The notes under the pieces: generated by a model
The model's database searches: none
What the model saw: only the letters and a program-made list of their open reading frames with translations
Told to the model about the DNA's origin: nothing
Translations under genes and position numbers: made by a program
Shown here: piece after piece, positions 311 through 7,751 of the stretch
Numbering within the stretch: the first letter of the stretch is position 1
Layout: each line of letters starts with the position of its first letter
Virus record (IMG/VR): IMGVR_UViG_3300046535_000692
Span: 1-36,696 of that record
DNA: 36,696 bases
Source of the DNA: a virus
Strand: one strand, 5' to 3'

Positions 311-709
311 TCAGAGGGCGGGCTGAGTGAGGCAGGCCCCGAGCTCGGCATCGGATCCGGCGGGGTGGAGACACTCGGAGAGCAGTGCCGGACCGGCGGG
401 GTTGGTGATGACCGAGCCCGAGGGGTTGCGGCGGGACTGGGCGGGGCGGAGGTACAGGGCGACGCAGTACCCGGTGAACCGGTCCGGCACGGTATGGCAG
501 GCCCGTACGGCGGCGACGACGGGGCGCGGCACGGTCGGGACGATGGTCGCGGTCACGGCGGGGACGGGGGACACGGGTACCCCCTCCTGGTTGCTGATGG
601 CGGGTGCGGCGACTGCGAGAGTGGCGATACCGAGCAGAGCGGCCCCGTAGGCGGTCATCGCCCCGATGAGAGGGAGATTCCGGCGGATTTTGGCGGTCTT
701 GAGACGCAT
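311..709 (-). CDS. Small secreted protein with signal peptide
   Basis: A 132-residue protein, last gene of the leftward operon. Residues 1-10 are basic (Lys/Arg-rich) and residues 13-35 are hydrophobic and Ala/Leu-rich, ending in an AVAA-P type signal-peptidase site near residue 35. The mature part has four cysteines, which could form two disulfides outside the cell. The start at 709 is supported by an AGGAAAGG ribosome site. No family is recognised. An exported phage early or moron-type protein could act at the cell surface, for example in superinfection exclusion, but that is only inference. Confidence 0.7.
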   Translation of the reverse strand: MRLKTAKIRRNLPLIGAMTAYGAALLGIATLAVAAPAISNQEGVPVSPVPAVTATIVPTVPRPVVAAVRACHTVPDRFTGYCVALYLRPAQSRRNPSGSVITNPAGPALLSECLHPAGSDAELGACLTQPAL

Positions 710-822
710 GGCGGGCCTTTCCTGGCGTATGTGGTGCGGGGGGGTGGTGCTGAGGGCGGTTTCACGGCCCCGCAGAGTCTCTGAGGGCGTCTGCGGGGCC
801 GGAAGCGGAGGGATACGGCCGG

Positions 823-1236
823 TTAGGCGGCGAGAGCGCTGGAAAGCTGGGAGACGGCCGCCTGGTACTGCGCGATGCGGGGCCGGTAGCCCCTGATGCC
901 ATCCTGGCCGTTGATCATGGCGCGCACCTGGTTGCGGGTGTAGCGGCCGGTCATGCGCGACGGCACCCGGAACGGCTGTGCGGCGATCTGACGGGCTACG
1001 GGGGTGCGCAGGGCCGGGGAGACGCCCATACGCCTGGCGGCGTCCCGTAGCCCTCCTGCGACGGCGGGAATGTCGTCCACGGGGACTCCGGCGGCGAGGA
1101 GGTAGGTGCCGAGGGAACGGGGGCGGCGGGTGGTGGTGGCGAGGAGGGCGATCCGGCGGCGTTCGGTGAGCGGCGGGCGGTTGTCCCGGCGTCGGGTGCG
1201 GAGCATGGCGCGGCGGTCACGCGTTGACTTGATCAT
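823..1236 (-). CDS. Very basic small protein, unknown function
   Basis: A 137-residue, strongly Arg-rich protein with no membrane segment. The N-terminal 30 residues are dominated by Arg and Lys, and a Pro/Val-rich middle is followed by a helical C-terminus ending in Ala-Leu-Ala-Ala. The start at 1236 is chosen because TAGGAATGTC precedes the ATG; a longer upstream extension of the frame lacks a ribosome site and covers the next gene. The charge suggests nucleic-acid binding, but no known fold is seen. It lies between the secreted protein and a small gene at 1275, in the same direction. Confidence 0.6.
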   Translation of the reverse strand: MIKSTRDRRAMLRTRRRDNRPPLTERRRIALLATTTRRPRSLGTYLLAAGVPVDDIPAVAGGLRDAARRMGVSPALRTPVARQIAAQPFRVPSRMTGRYTRNQVRAMINGQDGIRGYRPRIAQYQAAVSQLSSALAA

Positions 1237-1274
1237 GACATTCCTAGGGTTGAGGGCGAATGGCTGATGGAGGG

Positions 1275-1484
1275 TCAGGCGTTCTGTGCGGCGTGCTCCA
1301 TCAGCCGCTTGCGGACGTTGGCGCGGGTCGCCGCTTCGGTCTTCCCGGCTTCCACGCCGGACAGCTTCGGTTCGGTGATGAAGGCGTTCCATCCGCCGAA
1401 CGCGTGGGCGACGTGGGCGACGCGGACGCCGTTGAGGGTGGCGTAGGAGAAACCGGGCTCGACCTTGATCCACTTGAGACGCAT
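1275..1484 (-). CDS. Small hypothetical protein
   Basis: A 69-residue protein, basic at both ends, with an Ala-His-Val-Ala-His-Ala stretch in the middle and a predicted C-terminal helix. Two ATG codons are separated by ATC (ATG-ATC-ATG at 1490-1482). The ribosome site AAAGGA touches the first and lies 6 nt before the second, so the second (1484) is chosen. No family recognised. The following 142 bp up to 1627 hold no gene I can support. Confidence 0.6.
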   Translation of the reverse strand: MRLKWIKVEPGFSYATLNGVRVAHVAHAFGGWNAFITEPKLSGVEAGKTEAATRANVRKRLMEHAAQNA

Positions 1485-1626
1485 GATCATTCCTTTGCTT
1501 ACGGAGAGTGACGGGTTGGCAGATGGTGACGGTTGGCCGGTGTGACGGAGAGTGACTACCCCTCTGTAGTTCCGGCGGGAAGCACACCCGGAGTAGGTGC
1601 ACTCCCCGCCGGTACGGCAGAACGGG

Positions 1627-2082
1627 TCAGCGGTAGTCGTGCGCCCCGAGCGGGCCGGTACCGGTGTCCGTGCGCACCACCATCACGTGATACGTGCGGC
1701 GTGGCCCGAAGCCTACCCCCGGCTTGCCAGCTTCCGGGGTCATGCGCTTGAGCCCGATGTTCCGGTGCTCCGGGTGCCACGTGGCGGTGTAGTACGGCGT
1801 GATGGTCTCGCCGTCGTCCAGCAGCCACAGCGCGCGGCGGAAGTCGGGGAAGACGTCCACGCCGCCCGGGATGCTGATTTCCACACCCGTGAAGCCGTCG
1901 GCGCTCTCGGGCCACGTGATGCGCTCTACGATGCGGTAGGCGTAGTCGCGCGCCCGGGTGTGGTTGTCCATGGGGACCGTGATGTGCAGATGAGCGGACG
2001 TACGGGCGCCCGTAGGGCCGGTCCATCCGATGGGGCGCAGCTCGCGGCCGTTGTTGGCGTCGGTGGTGTAGTCCGTGGTCAT
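1627..2082 (-). CDS. Hypothetical protein, leftward early operon
   Basis: A 151-residue soluble protein. It begins with a polar stretch, followed by a mixed alpha/beta region with a His-Leu-His-Ile strand, a central Asp-Phe-Arg-Arg segment and a C-terminal beta-rich Arg/Thr region. The start at 2082 has AAGGAACATC immediately before ATG, matching several sister genes. No signal peptide, membrane segment or cysteine cluster is present, and no family is recognised. Confidence 0.65.
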   Translation of the reverse strand: MTTDYTTDANNGRELRPIGWTGPTGARTSAHLHITVPMDNHTRARDYAYRIVERITWPESADGFTGVEISIPGGVDVFPDFRRALWLLDDGETITPYYTATWHPEHRNIGLKRMTPEAGKPGVGFGPRRTYHVMVVRTDTGTGPLGAHDYR

Positions 2083-2122
2083 GATGTTCCTTTTCCTGGC
2101 GTAGCGGGTGAGGGGTGAGGGA

Positions 2123-2488
2123 TCAGGCGAAGATATAACGGCCGTGCGTGAGGTGGTCCTGTCCGGTGATCCGAGCCTTACCGGCCGCACGCCGCGCCAG
2201 TTCGTTTCGGATCATGCGCAGGTATGCCAGGTCGCACCGCCGGATGTTCTCGCCCCGGTACGGGCGGCAGTAGCCGGAAAGCTGGAATTCCTTGGTCTTG
2301 GCCTCATGGATCAGGTCTTCCGTGCTCATGGCGGCGTACTCCAGACGGAGGCTGCGGAGCGCCCCGGACTGTTGCCGGGCGCCAGAGCGCCGCATGTTGA
2401 GGATGAAGTCAACGGTTCCGTTGAGATCCATACGGTCGATGCCGTAGACGTGGCCGTACTGGCGGAGCAAGGGGATGTAGTTGCGCAT
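2123..2488 (-). CDS. Hypothetical helical basic protein
   Basis: A 121-residue, mostly helical, basic protein. Two Cys-Arg elements (near residues 80 and 92) and many Arg residues in the second half suggest a small nucleic-acid or protein-binding factor, without a recognisable fold. The start at 2488 is set by AAGGAAACC before the ATG; a longer frame upstream has no such site. It is spaced 40 bp from the next leftward gene. Confidence 0.6.
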   Translation of the reverse strand: MRNYIPLLRQYGHVYGIDRMDLNGTVDFILNMRRSGARQQSGALRSLRLEYAAMSTEDLIHEAKTKEFQLSGYCRPYRGENIRRCDLAYLRMIRNELARRAAGKARITGQDHLTHGRYIFA

Positions 2489-2587
2489 GGCGGTTTCCTT
2501 ACGTGAGGGGGATGGCTGTAGATCCGTGAGGGCGCGCCGTACCCGGTATACCGAGTCAGGTACGGGTGCCCTCACGGAACGGCAGAG

Positions 2588-2965
2588 TCACGCTTCGTTG
2601 AGTTCGTAGTCCTGCGTGACGTCGTTGCCGTCCTCCGACACGTGCACGTGGATGCCGTGCGGGGATAGCGAACCGCATGCGAAGTTGCCGTTGCCGACAC
2701 CGAGCGAGTCTTTCTCGTCTTCCCCGTCGGTACCGCACGGGCAGTTGCTCCGGGCGTTGTCGGCAGCTTCCGCCATCAGCGCACCGGCCATGCGCTCGGC
2801 GTCACGCTCGGAGCGGAAGCCCTTGTAGGTGGTCTGGAGACCGAACGTGCCGCACGAGTCGGACACCTCCACCCGGAACCATCCGCCACCCGCGTACTCG
2901 ACGGCATAGTCCCTGATCCAGTCGCTTTCGTCGTTGGCGGAGTAGACGCGGTTGTGGAGTTCCAT
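2588..2965 (-). CDS. Acidic hypothetical protein
   Basis: A 125-residue acidic protein. The first half predicts beta strands (a WFRVEV-like segment) and a helix rich in Glu/Ala/Arg. The second half has a Cys-Pro-Cys element near residue 78 and a very acidic tail. The ribosome site AGAGGA abuts a first ATG at 2971 and lies 6 nt before a second at 2965 (ATG-ATC-ATG), so 2965 is preferred. Unknown function; the 193 bp upstream, to 3159, show no supported gene. Confidence 0.6.
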   Translation of the reverse strand: MELHNRVYSANDESDWIRDYAVEYAGGGWFRVEVSDSCGTFGLQTTYKGFRSERDAERMAGALMAEAADNARSNCPCGTDGEDEKDSLGVGNGNFACGSLSPHGIHVHVSEDGNDVTQDYELNEA

Positions 2966-3158
2966 GATCATTCCTCTTTCTGATTCGAGGGGTTGAGGAC
3001 ACGCGCGGCGCATCACGGGCCACGGTCCGGGGCACCCGCCCTACGGCGTTGAATGGTGCGGCCTGTCGTCCGTGGCCATACTCGTCTGCTCCGCGCGTGC
3101 AGCGCTACCGGTCAGCCATGACGCTGCGCCCGCCCGAGACGGGGCCGGTAGCTGTGTG

Positions 3159-3437
3159 CTAGTCCTGCGGGAAGTGGAACATGCCGTCCGTGGGGCTGTA
3201 GTCCCCGTCCGACCAGTCATCAATGGAAACGGAGTAGGCGACGACGTTCGGCGCGGTCTTGAGGGTTTCCGCGAGGGTTACTCCCGTGATGACCGATGAC
3301 GTGACAACCCCCTGCCATGTCGGACGGATGCCACGGGCGGGCGACTCAAGCCATGTGATGCGGCGCCATCCCCGGGGGACCGGGGCACGGCGGGTGATGG
3401 AAAACTCGGCAACGACTCCGGTGTCTGTCATGGTCAT
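3159..3437 (-). CDS. Small hypothetical protein
   Basis: A 92-residue protein with alternating hydrophobic residues, suggesting a small beta-rich domain, and an acidic C-terminal third with Asp-Asp-Trp-Ser-Asp-Gly-Asp. GGAAAGAACATC precedes the ATG at 3437; a second in-frame ATG at 3431 is possible. No family recognised. It forms a tight leftward pair with the gene at 3464. Confidence 0.6.
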   Translation of the reverse strand: MTMTDTGVVAEFSITRRAPVPRGWRRITWLESPARGIRPTWQGVVTSSVITGVTLAETLKTAPNVVAYSVSIDDWSDGDYSPTDGMFHFPQD

Positions 3438-3463
3438 GATGTTCTTTCCTTCCTGGCAGATGG

Positions 3464-3712
3464 TCAGCGGCGGGCGAGGTGCGCCGCTTGTGCGTGTGCC
3501 TCGTCTTCGGTCATGTCCAGCGTTTCCGGGTACATGGGCCGTGTCTCGCTTGCGGTGTAGCGGACAACGCTGTAGCGGTCTTCCGCCGCGTCCAGTGCGA
3601 CGACGCGGTACCCCTCGGGTCCGGTGAACACCCAGCGGTTGCAGATGAACGACATGCCGTCACCCGTGGGGTAGTCGGTGCTGCGGGGCGTGGTGGTGGT
3701 GGTCTCGGACAT
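3464..3712 (-). CDS. Small acidic hypothetical protein
   Basis: An 82-residue protein: a Thr-rich flexible start, then a beta-rich core (residues 18-55) and an acidic helical tail (Met-Thr-Glu-Asp-Glu-Ala). GAGGGAACCATC precedes the ATG at 3712. It is the size of a host-takeover early protein, but nothing in the sequence names a function. Confidence 0.6.
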   Translation of the reverse strand: MSETTTTTPRSTDYPTGDGMSFICNRWVFTGPEGYRVVALDAAEDRYSVVRYTASETRPMYPETLDMTEDEAHAQAAHLARR

Positions 3713-3784
3713 GATGGTTCCCTCTCTGTAGTCCCATGGCCACGCGCACCCGTACAGGCATGCGCATGACCATGCGACGGCAGA

Positions 3785-4354
3785 TTAGCTAGCGGACGAA
3801 ACCTCAGCGGCCGTCATTGCGCACGCACACTCATCGTCCGGAACGTGCCCGCACGGTATGGTGTCATCGTCACCGCACGTGATGGGGCACCGGCCGTAGT
3901 GCTCCGAGCGCCATGCAGTGTCGCACCCTACGCAGTGTTGCTCGATGCGCGTCGCCCGGTTGTGAAACTCCGCGCGCTGGGACACTGGCTTACCGCAGTA
4001 CGCGATACGCCCGGACCCCTCACGCCGGATACAGCCGATCTTGCTACGGCCGTTGACCCACGTACGGGACGCCGGGAGATAGTCGAACCCCGTGCCGAAC
4101 TCCGTACGGAGCATCTCGCCGACGGATGCGGCTGTGTGCGAATGGTCGGTGCCGTAGTCCACGCTCTGTGCGACGACGTTCCAACCGGACACGTGACGCT
4201 GGACGATCATGTACGCCCACGTGAGGTGATGCTCCGCCGTAGCGATGGGGCTGACCAGGATGACGGTAGGGGCCGTGTTGGGCGCGTCCGTGTCACGGTT
4301 GACCCGCTCGACGTGCTGCCATTCCTTGTTTGCGTAGATCATCGGAACTGACAT
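3785..4354 (-). CDS. Cys-rich protein, probable zinc binder
   Basis: A 189-residue protein. Residues 1-110 are mixed alpha/beta. The C-terminal 80 residues carry about ten cysteines and several histidines, including Cys-x2-Cys near residue 145, Cys-x3-Cys, Cys-Gly-His and Cys-Ala-Cys, which resembles one or two zinc ribbons. The ATG at 4354 lies 2 nt beyond the stop codon of the upstream gene, and AAGGGTGGTAAG serves as its ribosome site, so the two are probably translationally coupled. A nucleic-acid-binding role fits the zinc cluster but is inference. Confidence 0.65.
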   Translation of the reverse strand: MSVPMIYANKEWQHVERVNRDTDAPNTAPTVILVSPIATAEHHLTWAYMIVQRHVSGWNVVAQSVDYGTDHSHTAASVGEMLRTEFGTGFDYLPASRTWVNGRSKIGCIRREGSGRIAYCGKPVSQRAEFHNRATRIEQHCVGCDTAWRSEHYGRCPITCGDDDTIPCGHVPDDECACAMTAAEVSSAS

Positions 4355-4356
4355 GA

Positions 4357-5325
4357 TCACTTACCACCCTTCGCGTTGTCAGCGTTCTTCTTGATGGCGC
4401 GCGCGATCTTGAGCGCGGCCGACTTCTCAGCCTTTGCCTGCGCGTCGGCCGCGTGTGCGATCTTGCTCTGCGCGTCCAACCGGCGACGGTACCGACGCTG
4501 CCAGCTGTCGGACTTGCTCTTGTACACCGCGACCGTGACACCGATCGCCTCAAGCGCGGACGGGTGCGAGTCTACGAACGCCTTGGCCGGGCCGACAGCT
4601 TTGCCGTTGATCTTGATGACGACCAGCGGCGGAGACTTCACCGACTCGTCGAGATGATCCCGGCCGGTCGGGTCGCTCATGGTGCCACGGGAAGCCACCA
4701 CCTTGCCCCCGCCCGGAGCCTTGACCTTACGTCGGTCCGCCGGGGCGCCTGTCTGAGACTTGCCCCGGACGATGGCAGCCTCATTCGGCAGCACACCCGT
4801 ACCGAAGAACGTCCCCGGCTCCGGGGGGAAGGGACGCACGGGCAGACCGGCCGTAGGAAGGGGCTCGAATGCCTCCGTCTCGGGCGCCGGTGCCGGTTCA
4901 CTCTGAGTGACCGGAGCGTGCAGCTCCCACACACCCTCGGACACAAGCTCCGCGATCTTGGCAGGCGCGTCAAGCTCCGCCGCCGCCCGAAGTTCCGCGA
5001 TCATGTCCGCGTTCTCTTCGGCGTAGGCGGCGTTCCGGGCGTCCTCAAGCGCGGTCTGTCCGGCGTCGCTCGCAAGCCATGCCTCGCACTTCTTGCACTT
5101 CCGGTCGCCCTGAAACTTCTCCGTGACGCCGTTCTTCGCGCGCCATGCGTCCATGGGCTTGGAGCCGGAGCACACGGGCTGCATCTGCGGGTTACCGCCG
5201 ATGTGATCCGCACCCCGTGTGATCAGGGTGGACATGATCACGTGGCCGACGCCGTTCGCGTAGCCGAACCATGAGGGCGTTGCATCGAATGTGAGCGCGA
5301 CGTACGAGGTTTCGATTTCAGTCAT
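4357..5325 (-). CDS. Multidomain hypothetical protein with Cys-x2-Cys
   Basis: At 322 residues this is the largest gene of the leftward arm. Residues 1-90 form a domain with Cys-Lys-Lys-Cys near residue 78. Residues 90-135 are an Ala/Glu-rich helix. Residues 140-185 are a Pro/Glu-rich linker. Residues 225-270 form a small alpha/beta unit. The last 55 residues are a Lys/Arg/Ala-rich helix, probably a nucleic-acid-binding tail. Start 5325 is set by GGAAAGATC before ATG. It is first downstream of the repeat-rich leader (5326-5983). No family is recognised. Confidence 0.65.
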   Translation of the reverse strand: MTEIETSYVALTFDATPSWFGYANGVGHVIMSTLITRGADHIGGNPQMQPVCSGSKPMDAWRAKNGVTEKFQGDRKCKKCEAWLASDAGQTALEDARNAAYAEENADMIAELRAAAELDAPAKIAELVSEGVWELHAPVTQSEPAPAPETEAFEPLPTAGLPVRPFPPEPGTFFGTGVLPNEAAIVRGKSQTGAPADRRKVKAPGGGKVVASRGTMSDPTGRDHLDESVKSPPLVVIKINGKAVGPAKAFVDSHPSALEAIGVTVAVYKSKSDSWQRRYRRRLDAQSKIAHAADAQAKAEKSAALKIARAIKKNADNAKGGK

Positions 5326-5355
5326 GATCTTTCCTTTCGTCTGCCCTGATGGGCG

Positions 5356-5431
5356 GAAGGGTCAACGGCACGCACACACGAGGTATGCGCACTGGTCACC
5401 CTTCCCCCGTGCCGCCCTAGGGGGCAGCACG
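5356..5431. repeat. Nested inverted repeat module 1
   Basis: GGAAGGGT (5356-5363) pairs with ACCCTTCC (5397-5404) directly beside the TGAT hairpin at 5343. Next to it CCGTGC (5408-5413) and GCACGG (5426-5431) extend the TAGG hairpin into a stem of about 10 bp with one mismatch. The stem is strong enough to act as a terminator or processing site, but no T-run follows on either strand. Confidence 0.55.
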
Positions 5432-5544
5432 GGGGGTTGGTGTGATGGAAGTCGATTGGTAGCGCGCACCCATCAGTGCACCACGTGCGCGCCTATGCGC
5501 ACACCCCCTCGGGACGACAAAGCCCGAGACGTACCCCGCAGTTC

Positions 5545-5609
5545 CCGATCTTCACCCGCCCTGATGGGCAGTGCGCTCCGCCCTAGAGGGCAGTACGCGG
5601 GAAGATCGG
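5545..5609. repeat. Nested inverted repeat module 2
   Basis: CCGATCTTC (5545-5553) and GAAGATCGG (5601-5609) are perfect 9-bp inverted arms. They enclose one TGAT hairpin (5558-5569) and one TAGA hairpin (5580-5591), so the segment can fold as a three-way or four-way branched RNA, or a DNA cruciform. A partial copy, CGATCTTCCC plus a TGAT hairpin, recurs at 5832-5853. Confidence 0.6.
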
Positions 5610-5804
5610 TACCGGATTCAATCGGACACCCCCACCTGGTTCACTCGCTCTGGTCACCCGCGCCACGTTTCCGTGCCGCTGCGCATTGCAGCGCGTCGTC
5701 CCTCTTAGGTGGGGACCACCCCTTCCCTCTGTCGCCCTAGGGGGCAATGAAGATCAGGAGATTAGGCCTTCTCAGATTGATCATGTGTCCGGAAGTGTCC
5801 GATA

Positions 5805-5820
5805 TTGAGTTCTCAAGGAA
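5805..5820 (-). promoter_or_regulatory. rrn-leader-like boxA antitermination sequence
   Basis: On the minus strand the sequence reads TTCCTTGAGAACTCAA. From memory this matches the sequence just upstream of 16S rRNA genes in Streptomyces and related actinobacteria (TTGAGAACTCAA followed by CAG or TAG), where Nus factors load for antitermination. It contains the dyad TTGAG-AA-CTCAA. It sits in the leader between the leftward gene at 5984 and the ten genes from 5325 down, the place where an antitermination site would be useful. Recognised by eye, not by search. Confidence 0.6.
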
Positions 5821-5959
5821 CAGCCCATACGCGATCTTCCCGCCCTGATGGGCCGACGCCCTAGTGGGCGCGATCACGCTGGATTCAGTTGGATCATGGC
5901 GACTCATGGTCACCGTCAGTGATCACCTGCCCTGATGGGCTGCTGATCACCTACGGCAA

Positions 5960-5976
5960 CCCCCGTCGCGCGGGGG
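5960..5976 (-). terminator. GC-rich hairpin after the 5984 gene
   Basis: CCCCCG (5960-5965) and CGGGGG (5971-5976) form a 6-bp all-GC stem with a 5-nt loop, 8 bp beyond the stop codon of the leftward gene. On the minus strand only TTGCC follows, so termination would be partial; with the boxA downstream it may be an attenuation point. Confidence 0.4.
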
Positions 5977-5983
5977 CGCTGCC

Positions 5984-6331
5984 CTAGATCATGTTGCAGG
6001 CCTCGGCCCATGAGCCGTACACGGAACGGGCCTTGACCATGATCCACATGGCGGGGGCCTCGGCCACGTCATCCGCGTCCGCGTCACGCCATCCCCATGA
6101 TCCGAACTCCGCGCGGATCCAGGCCAGGGCGGTGCTGGTCACACGGGTGACCTCGGCGTCGCGCACGGTGATGCGCTCACCCGCGCGCAGGCCATGGGCG
6201 GAGATGACCTTGAGGACGACGCGGTCACCAAGATCACGCACGAGGGTCCCGATGATCGCCCGGCGGGGGGACTCCGCGATCATGAGGGTGCCCTGGCTGA
6301 GGGCGTGCTTGATCATCGTGTTGGTGTTCAT
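5984..6331 (-). CDS. First leftward gene, hypothetical protein
   Basis: A 115-residue protein, with beta-rich residues 25-65 and Trp-rich residues 75-105 (Trp-Ile-Arg, Trp-Gly-Trp-Arg, Trp-Ile-Met). It is the promoter-proximal gene of the leftward unit, downstream of the iron box. Three starts overlap in ATGATGATCATG; GGAG lies 9 nt before the last (6331), which is chosen. Its TAG stop lies inside a degenerate copy of the GCCCTAG repeat. No family recognised. Its position suits an early regulator, but no DNA-binding motif is visible. Confidence 0.6.
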   Translation of the reverse strand: MNTNTMIKHALSQGTLMIAESPRRAIIGTLVRDLGDRVVLKVISAHGLRAGERITVRDAEVTRVTSTALAWIRAEFGSWGWRDADADDVAEAPAMWIMVKARSVYGSWAEACNMI

Positions 6332-6507
6332 GATCATCATCTCCGGTCTCGCGGGCGGGGCGCCTGCCCTAGTGGGCGGGGGCCTGGCCTCCGGGGTTTC
6401 CCCCTTTGGCCATGCCCTAAGTCTACAGCCTCGCTAGGGTTTCGGGGCGCTTTTCCGTGACAGGTTCCGGCCACTTGTGGTGCATGATCATGTGTCCGTA
6501 TCCGGCA

Positions 6508-6526
6508 TGAGGGTAGGCTTACCTCA
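6508..6526. promoter_or_regulatory. Iron box (DmdR/IdeR/DtxR-type operator)
   Basis: The 19-mer TGAGGGTAGGCTTACCTCA is an imperfect dyad and fits the actinobacterial iron-box consensus TWAGGTWAGSCTWACCTWA at 16 of 19 positions by my count. It lies 10 bp downstream of a minus-strand TTGACT (6541-6536), overlapping the place where the -10 of a leftward promoter would be. An iron-loaded host repressor bound here would block that promoter. Confidence 0.6.
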
Positions 6527-6535
6527 GTCACACAC

Positions 6536-6541
6536 AGTCAA
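6536..6541 (-). promoter_or_regulatory. Possible -35 of leftward promoter
   Basis: TTGACT on the minus strand. Candidate -10 elements downstream are weak: TACCCT lies at 20 nt, and GCCTAC at 17 nt. Because the spacer and -10 would overlap the iron box, a weak -10 under repressor control is plausible. The true start site cannot be fixed from sequence. Confidence 0.35.
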
Positions 6542-6730
6542 CCGGCACATGATCATCATCACTGAGCGTGCGCATGCGGAGAGTGACAATGATCTTGGCC
6601 TCGGCTACGTAGAGTTACCTCGGAAGTTGATCTTGCTCCACGGCCCGGGTCCGTGAAATTTGTGTGGTTCCTGATGACTTTTCGAAACTCCCCAACACTT
6701 ATCGGTTCATATTCATCGAGAACTCACTGA

Positions 6731-6753
6731 ACGCACGTCACATGCAAGTGCGT
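6731..6753. promoter_or_regulatory. Inverted repeat upstream of rightward promoter
   Basis: ACGCAC (6731-6736) and GTGCGT (6748-6753) form a 6-bp dyad with an 11-bp spacer. It covers the -35 region of the promoter whose -10 is at 6775-6780, as an operator would. No protein candidate for it is encoded in the window. Confidence 0.35.
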
Positions 6754-6774
6754 CATTATCGAAAACGTGTCCGG

Positions 6775-6780
6775 TACAGT
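6775..6780 (+). promoter_or_regulatory. Leaderless -10 element for 6787 gene
   Basis: TACAGT is followed by exactly 6 nt and then ATG at 6787. No ribosome site precedes that ATG. With the usual 6-7 nt between -10 and start site, transcription would begin at or next to the A of ATG, giving a leaderless mRNA. The two HNH genes of this window have the same geometry. Confidence 0.5.
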
Positions 6781-6786
6781 TACCCG

Positions 6787-7017
6787 ATGACCACACCGAA
6801 GCCCGATGACCTCATGACCACGGAAATACGCCTGGCGGTCGTCCGCGCGCAGGTCCGCACCGAAATGCTGGAAGAACGCCTGGAAGCGGTCCGCACGGAT
6901 CACGAACAGCGCCTCCGCGAACTGGAACGCGCCCGCTTCCCGCTCAAGCACATCGGGGCGGCCTCCGCGCTGATCGGCGTGGTCATCGCCGGGATCGCCC
7001 TGTGGCAGCAGCACTGA
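6787..7017 (+). CDS. Coiled-coil protein with C-terminal membrane segment
   Basis: A 76-residue protein. Residues 12-52 are a charged Glu/Arg-rich heptad-like helix (coiled coil), and residues 54-74 form one hydrophobic membrane span ending in a short polar tail. Such a tail-anchored layout is common in small phage membrane proteins (holin-like, spanin-like or superinfection proteins), but none can be named. The ATG at 6787 is chosen because a -10 element lies 6 nt before it; upstream in-frame ATGs at 6664 and 6742 have neither ribosome site nor fitting promoter. Confidence 0.6.
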   Translation: MTTPKPDDLMTTEIRLAVVRAQVRTEMLEERLEAVRTDHEQRLRELERARFPLKHIGAASALIGVVIAGIALWQQH

Positions 7018-7033
7018 CGCATACTTCCGGTGT

Positions 7034-7078
7034 TAAGATCAACGCGAAGACCCCAGCGCCGCGCTAACGGCCTGGGGT
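7034..7078 (+). promoter_or_regulatory. Promoter -10 and hairpin leader of GIY-YIG gene
   Basis: TAAGAT (7034-7039) can serve as -10. Transcription would then begin just before GCGAAGACCCCAG, which pairs with CTGGGGT (ACCCCAG 7050-7056 with CTGGGGT 7072-7078, extended inward by GCC/GGC past a bulged C) around a GCGCTAAC loop. A ribosome site, GCAGGAG, follows at 7094. From memory, hairpins of the type GCGAAG-CCCC...CTAAC...GGGG recur in front of small genes in Streptomyces phages and mobile elements. No -35 is clear. Confidence 0.5.
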
Positions 7079-7106
7079 GTGGTCAGCACTAAGCAGGAGT
7101 GCCAAC

Positions 7107-7751
7107 ATGAGTTATCGTAAGCCGCTTGCCGTCCGCCCCGCAACCGAGCCACTGACGCCCACCATGCGTGCGCGATTTGAGGCAGCCAACGTGCCACTCG
7201 ATGTAAATGACCCAGCATACGAACAGATCGTGAAAACGGTGGTCGTTCTTCATGCCCGTACAGGTCAACTGACAGGAGAACTCCTTCGTGCGGCGACTGA
7301 AATCGGCCGCCTCAAGCAGCAAGCAGCGCAGATTCACGCAGAGTACGTTGATGCGCTAGCCACGGTCCACACAGCAGAGCAGCAGTTCCTGGTGGACGAG
7401 AAGCGAAGGAACGAACTGACTGACCGCGCCGAGGAAGAAGCGGAACACTCGGAAGCCGGTGTGCACTACGTCTACTATGCACGCCGTGGCTCACTGGTGA
7501 AAATCGGGACCAGCTCCGACATCTACCGCCGCATGGCAGAGATCCTTCCCGACGAAGTCATGGCTGTAGAGCCTGGCAGTTATGCGCTTGAGTCAAAGAT
7601 GCACCTACAGTTCCGTCACCTGCGCGCCTTGAGTCGTGGCCAGCGTGAATGGTTCCGTCTTGAACAGGAACTCCGCGACCATATTACGGGCGTCCGTGAT
7701 TTCCACGGGAACCCACCAGTAGGCCTTCCGACACTTCCACCAAGTCACTGA
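7107..7751 (+). CDS. GIY-YIG (T5orf172-like) domain protein
   Basis: A 214-residue protein. Residues 45-115 are helical and charged, a likely coiled coil. Residues 118-205 read as a T5orf172/MUG113-type GIY-YIG nuclease domain: a Tyr-Val-Tyr-Tyr strand (121-124), Lys-Ile-Gly-Thr-Ser (132-136) with Arg residues in the following helix, Leu-Glu-Ser-Lys-x-His with the probable metal-binding Glu162, and Glu-Trp-Phe near the end. Such proteins cut or nick DNA, or are remnants of homing nucleases. GCAGGAG supports the ATG at 7107. It is monocistronic, with its own leader. Confidence 0.75.
   Translation: MSYRKPLAVRPATEPLTPTMRARFEAANVPLDVNDPAYEQIVKTVVVLHARTGQLTGELLRAATEIGRLKQQAAQIHAEYVDALATVHTAEQQFLVDEKRRNELTDRAEEEAEHSEAGVHYVYYARRGSLVKIGTSSDIYRRMAEILPDEVMAVEPGSYALESKMHLQFRHLRALSRGQREWFRLEQELRDHITGVRDFHGNPPVGLPTLPPSH

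Follow-up and report, generated by a model that had tools for sequence, protein, structure and literature searches.

Phages are already known to use Nus factors, and most knowledge of Nus-dependent phage antitermination comes from the lambdoid phages that infect enterobacteria. The put RNA of phage HK022 is a pair of hairpins that acts directly on RNA polymerase. In rRNA (rrn) operons, antitermination involves NusB-S10 on boxA and NusA and NusG on the polymerase, with resistance to Rho as the outcome (PMC10931766, PMC5725501). boxA also occurs outside rRNA operons, upstream of suhB and of genes for ParE-like toxins (PMC5725501) and before CRISPR arrays (Stringer et al. 2020, cited in PMC7862264). 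With boxA in the leader, transcription of the untranslated arrays that follow has been shown to rise (PMC7862264).

We analyzed a viral DNA stretch of 36,696 nt (IMG/VR record IMGVR_UViG_3300046535_000692, here called the window) that carries a boxA-like site ahead of a leftward operon. The features of this region are as follows.

5805 to 5820, minus strand: boxA core, TTCCTTGAGAACTCAA, equal to Streptomyces rrn leaders
5800 to 5821, minus strand: extended signal, G-TTCC-TTGAGAACTCAA-TATCG, as aligned to rrn and 57 phage leaders
5790 to 5801, minus strand: small hairpin CGGA-CACU-UCCG, formed by the GTGTCCG repeats directly after the signal
5842 to 5853, minus strand: upstream hairpin GCCC-AUCA-GGGC, ending 25 nt before TTGAG, in a boxB-like position and with a non-GNRA loop
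5343 to 5940, minus strand: eight GCCC-NNNN-GGGC hairpins, at 5343, 5414, 5558, 5580, 5734, 5842, 5858, and 5929
5326 to 5804, minus strand: untranslated leader from boxA to the first gene, MFE -239, z about -5.5
4357 to 5325, minus strand: first gene after the leader, 322 aa, no function assigned
311 to 4360, minus strand: remaining leftward genes after the leader
5984 to 6340, minus strand: leftward gene upstream of boxA, 118 aa

Compared with the Streptomyces and mycobacterial rrn antiterminator (boxB-boxA-boxC), the window has an identical boxA and a nearly matching candidate NusA-type sequence. A hairpin that may be the boxB counterpart lies upstream, at close to the 24 nt of Streptomyces rrn, and structured untranslated RNA lies downstream, as in rrn. 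However, the window element precedes phage genes rather than rRNA, and its hairpin loop and flanks differ. Lambda nut, which works with the N protein, likewise places a Nus-factor boxA in a phage leader before an operon, but its order is boxA and then boxB, whereas the main hairpin of the window precedes the TTGAG core by 25 nt. Where nut has boxB downstream of boxA, the window has only a 4-bp hairpin, and its boxA sequence is of the actinobacterial rrn form. The family searches of the leftward proteins identified no N-like partner. HK022 put is also an RNA element in a phage leader, and both may act without a phage protein; the difference is that boxA is present in the window. The first-pass annotation had likened the site to lambda nut or HK022 put; the order of hairpin, boxA, and NusA-type site agrees with rrn operons rather than with either of these. 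The boxA before CRISPR arrays is likewise of rrn type and borrowed so that polymerase continues through an untranslated RNA, but the window case concerns a phage operon in actinobacteria. Finally, suhB is repressed by a boxA close to its start codon (PMC5725501), whereas the window boxA is 480 nt upstream, in a leader.

The boxA signal and host rrn leaders

For host sequences, we used a complete Streptomyces genome with seven copies of CTTGAGAACTCAACAG, six of which precede the 16S start by 186 nt, together with other actinobacterial rrn leaders, which carry TTTGAGAACTCAATAG at 172-195 nt before the 16S start. Streptomyces rrn has an upstream hairpin, GCCC-GAGA-GGGT, 24 nt before boxA, and the mycobacterial-type rrn leaders examined are without a GNRA hairpin at that position. 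The first-pass annotation had equated the window motif with the sequence preceding Streptomyces 16S genes, and actual rrn leaders bear this out: a 72-nt Streptomyces rrn leader aligned to the window gave 17 of 17 contiguous identical bases (blastn, E 1.2e-4). TTCCTTGAGAACTCAA was also found exactly where it had been placed, at 5820-5805 on the minus strand, and as a single exact copy in the 36,696-base record.

Within the extended signal, GAACTCAATA is similar to the site that rrn leaders have for NusA. The window site reads CAATAT, a 5/6 match to the CAAYAG that other phages fit in full, and it departs from the CAAYAGNG consensus by one difference, T for G at +2. The 18-mer TTCCTTGAGAACTCAATA had no match in the rrn leaders examined and only six scattered matches, one of them in Streptomyces, without 16S after. 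Since it is missing from those leaders, the window's TTCC...CAATA is a blend of a Streptomyces-like and a mycobacterial-like end. The 66-nt extended rrn match known from other phages is absent from the window, and an Rfam search of the window returned nothing meaningful.

Scored with a motif model built from the leaders of 56 other phages, the window site reached 31.4 bits, with 3.3 for the next-best site in the window and 15.0 for the best site in 200 dinucleotide shuffles. The score argues against a random match where noncoding DNA happens to be AT-rich, and the strand and place of the site are also correct. Chance would be in keeping with the T instead of G at +2 and with the lack of the motif in most close relatives; nevertheless, we regard it as very improbable.

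Leader, hairpins, and neighboring genes

The site lies within a 658-nt gap (5326-5983) between two leftward genes, with 479 nt from the motif to the first downstream gene. The two GTGTCCG copies with a 10-bp period described in the first pass are present on the plus strand at 5785-5791 and 5795-5801, and short GCCC-NNNN-GGGC hairpins lie on either side of boxA, in agreement with its flanking hairpins. This hairpin type has nine sites within 1 kb (5343-6366), the ninth at 6366, vs. four across the remaining window, and the loops of the array fall into two families, AUCA and NCUA. At the boxB position, 25 nt from the core, GCCC-AUCA-GGGC has a loop that is not GNRA, and its placement is weak evidence because several such hairpins lie upstream. 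The leader as a whole is far more stably folded than its shuffles, although structure by itself says little here, as coding controls in the same phages sometimes fold equally well.

The protein of the first gene (4357-5325) shows weak similarity to proteins encoded first in their operons in Streptomyces phages JustBecause and Kela and in a 102-kb IMG/VR record (G090). We found no close relatives of it in viral contigs, and a search of window DNA 4800-6800 against phages found no relative. The leftward proteins had no match to a family of known function at the thresholds used, which is compatible with an N-type protein among them. Because the gene at 5984-6340 precedes the motif and has the same orientation, transcription may begin before that gene; a sigma-70-like promoter was not found closely upstream of boxA. 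A 58-aa frame across boxA (5737-5913, minus strand) was rejected as a gene: its third-position G+C of 0.67 is below that of most leftward genes, and it overlaps hairpins. We treated it as noncoding.

The first-of-operon proteins of the window (4357-5325) and of two other loci (L281:5951-6994 and L121:2932-4863) have a common N-terminal pattern, GYAxGxGH ... RCKxC, which makes a new small zinc-binding family possible on sequence grounds. In the rightward arm, 7077-7751 encodes a T5orf172 (GIY-YIG-like) domain protein, and the adjoining 7826-8548 matches PHROG 645.

Recurrence and anatomy across phages and plasmids

A 30-nt rrn-like query matched 163 records of the phage collection, namely 162 actinophages and one Vibrio phage; 145 were Streptomyces phages, and the remainder of the 162 were Mycobacterium, Gordonia, Rhodococcus, and Nocardia phages. 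In these 163 records, the motif comprises boxA and the adjoining NusA-type site CAAYAG, and across phages, it is mostly intergenic, on the sense strand, and before the first gene of an arm. A mycobacterial-type query gave 162 records, adding Arthrobacter and Corynebacterium phages but also some scattered matches in genes of non-actinobacterial phages. The reversed query, our control, gave 16 scattered records, nearly all of non-actinobacterial phages and mostly within genes. Both the recurrence of the motif, sense and intergenic, in many unrelated actinophages and the sparse control speak strongly for the first-pass suggestion that the phage may use a host rrn-type signal. High-GC contigs of IMG/VR hold many further matches, and low-GC matches look like chance. 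We discarded a first broad IMG/VR pattern, which was mostly chance in low-GC contigs; the family is formed by the high-GC matches only.

We examined 17 annotated phages, which represent roughly twelve lineages (Likavirus, Camvirus, Stanwilliamsviridae, Beephvirinae, Mclasvirinae, Bantamvirus, Rerduovirus, Fromanvirus, Jasminevirus, Borockvirus, Zukovirus, and Zierdtviridae). Fifteen sites lie outside annotated genes, the next gene is on the same strand in 15/16, and the leader from boxA to the next gene is commonly 120-690 nt. The Joe site is intragenic by an antisense gene call from one gene finder only, and the Coruscant site is intragenic near an annotated gene start, with no such gene annotated in related phages. 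phiC31 has no such boxA. HaugeAnator, Manuel, and RGL3 (L248:761, L260:781, and L253:3418) have a second near-boxA ∼403-411 nt from the first. In GurgleFerb (L256, 113-136), boxA is directed outward at the left end of the genome, an Lsr2-like gene lies upstream of it, and transcription may run across the joined genome ends.

With the 72-nt Streptomyces rrn leader as query, 122 phage records matched (120 Streptomyces and 2 Gordonia phages), the best being phage Lannister at 90.9% over 66 nt (E 8e-18). Such a 66-nt match in some phages is what capture of host DNA would produce, and the site could accordingly be an attachment site or a recent functionless scrap of host rrn DNA. However, no integrase family was recognized among the window proteins searched, and the motif occupies leaders of many unrelated phages, where flanks drift, the core is conserved, and the hairpin is kept with different stems; we give this explanation the lowest probability of all. 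The near-complete rrn mimicry of some phages, with two copies ∼400 nt apart in some leaders, could also be read as a decoy, an abundant leader RNA that titrates NusB-S10 and NusA from host rRNA operons and lowers rRNA synthesis. A sponge would require no fixed site before operons, yet the motif sits in operon leaders, and the window has a single copy. We judge a decoy improbable and place it just after the DNA operator considered below.

The anatomy of the signal was derived from 57 phage leaders, thinned for similarity. At positions left unforced by the search, G at -5 occurs in 52/57 leaders and G at +4 occurs in 55/57, and the window matches both; the near-invariant G at +2, which is mostly forced by the search pattern, is absent from the window (T). 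A GNRA-tetraloop hairpin precedes boxA in 18/57 leaders, with 20-26 nt between its end and TTGAG in nearly every case, vs. a mean of 3.4 and a maximum of 9 in shuffled upstream sequences and 1 with the loop reversed. Its stems vary (CCC/GGG, GGC/GCC, GCC/GGC, CCCG/CGGG, and CAG/CTG). The core, TTGAG-AA-CTCAA, is an inverted repeat with a 2-nt center, and operators are frequent in phage leaders; the near-palindrome might thus function as DNA, through binding of a repressor or other phage regulator, and not at the RNA level. Against this, conservation is asymmetric (upstream TTCC, G at -5, and downstream CAGNG), the variants of other phages mostly alter the right half only (CTGAA, CTCCA, and CTAAA), the motif almost always has the orientation of the gene that follows, and the same string is the rrn boxA. 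A DNA operator is, therefore, unlikely.

Relatives of the window were gathered through terminase similarity. The 102-kb record G090, with a 70% identical terminase, carries the signal as TTGAGAACTGAACAG, in which boxA has one mismatch. This boxA is directed leftward relative to the terminase, as in the window, and precedes it by ∼5 kb, compared with 4.2 kb for the window; a leader of ∼650 nt follows, with a first gene weakly similar to that of the window (E 1e-5 in a single comparison). The check proposed in the first pass, for the motif at the equivalent place in related phages, found it in G090 only: ∼30 other terminase relatives are without the boxA signal, several of these records being fragments. 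From these sequences, the signal appears to come and go within the family, which fits modular phage genomes, or to be replaced at times. One of 121 Streptomyces genomes has a 64% identical terminase, and because of this and of the Streptomyces-type 5′ part of the motif, the host of the window is probably a streptomycete or close kin.

In PLSDB, the motif occurs in 33 plasmid records (H304-H336), all actinobacterial and mostly outside annotated genes; some matches in large plasmids may be rrn copies. The Streptomyces genome used above (G014) also has a non-rrn boxA copy (L275, C1 about 5201399) with a GAAGGAAGCG upstream element. It precedes DUF6284 and Pycsar-effector-like genes and adjoins a GntR/UTRA regulator, and the locus looks like an integrative conjugative element with the same boxA signal. 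In S. indicus (L240), CTTGAGAACTCAATA has rrn-like upstream bases and no 16S after it within the stretch examined.

Proposed action and significance

We conclude that the window site is quite probably an rrn-type antiterminator of the actinobacterial kind that acts in cis for the phage operon, as judged from its sequence and setting. boxA is on the predicted transcribed strand, ahead of an untranslated structured leader RNA. Once transcribed, the boxA RNA would be bound by host NusB-S10, NusA would bind just downstream of boxA, and NusG would join. The modified RNA polymerase would resist Rho and pausing across the folded untranslated leader of ∼480 nt and would then continue into the leftward operon. 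rrn-like action is the most likely role for the window boxA because the leader, being long, untranslated, and folded, is a target for Rho and pausing. We infer Nus-factor binding, read-through, and no need for a phage protein such as lambda N.

Its recurrence in many unrelated actinophages suggests that the motif represents a common, apparently undescribed borrowing of host transcription machinery. We found no account of an rrn-type boxA in actinophages in the open-licence literature, and older subscription papers may mention one. We lean somewhat toward a broader view, in which actinobacterial mobile elements generally (plasmids, integrative elements, and phages from six or more host genera) carry a host rrn-type antiterminator of GNRA hairpin, boxA, and NusA site before operons and so run RNA polymerase in its ribosomal, Rho-resistant state without a dedicated phage antiterminator protein. 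If true, a host-identical rrn antiterminator that recurs among actinophages would account for the escape of long operons with many gaps from termination. The phage boxA leaders would then be natural and simple reporters of NusB, S10, and NusA in actinobacteria, and the motif would be a marker of operon starts in sparsely annotated phages.
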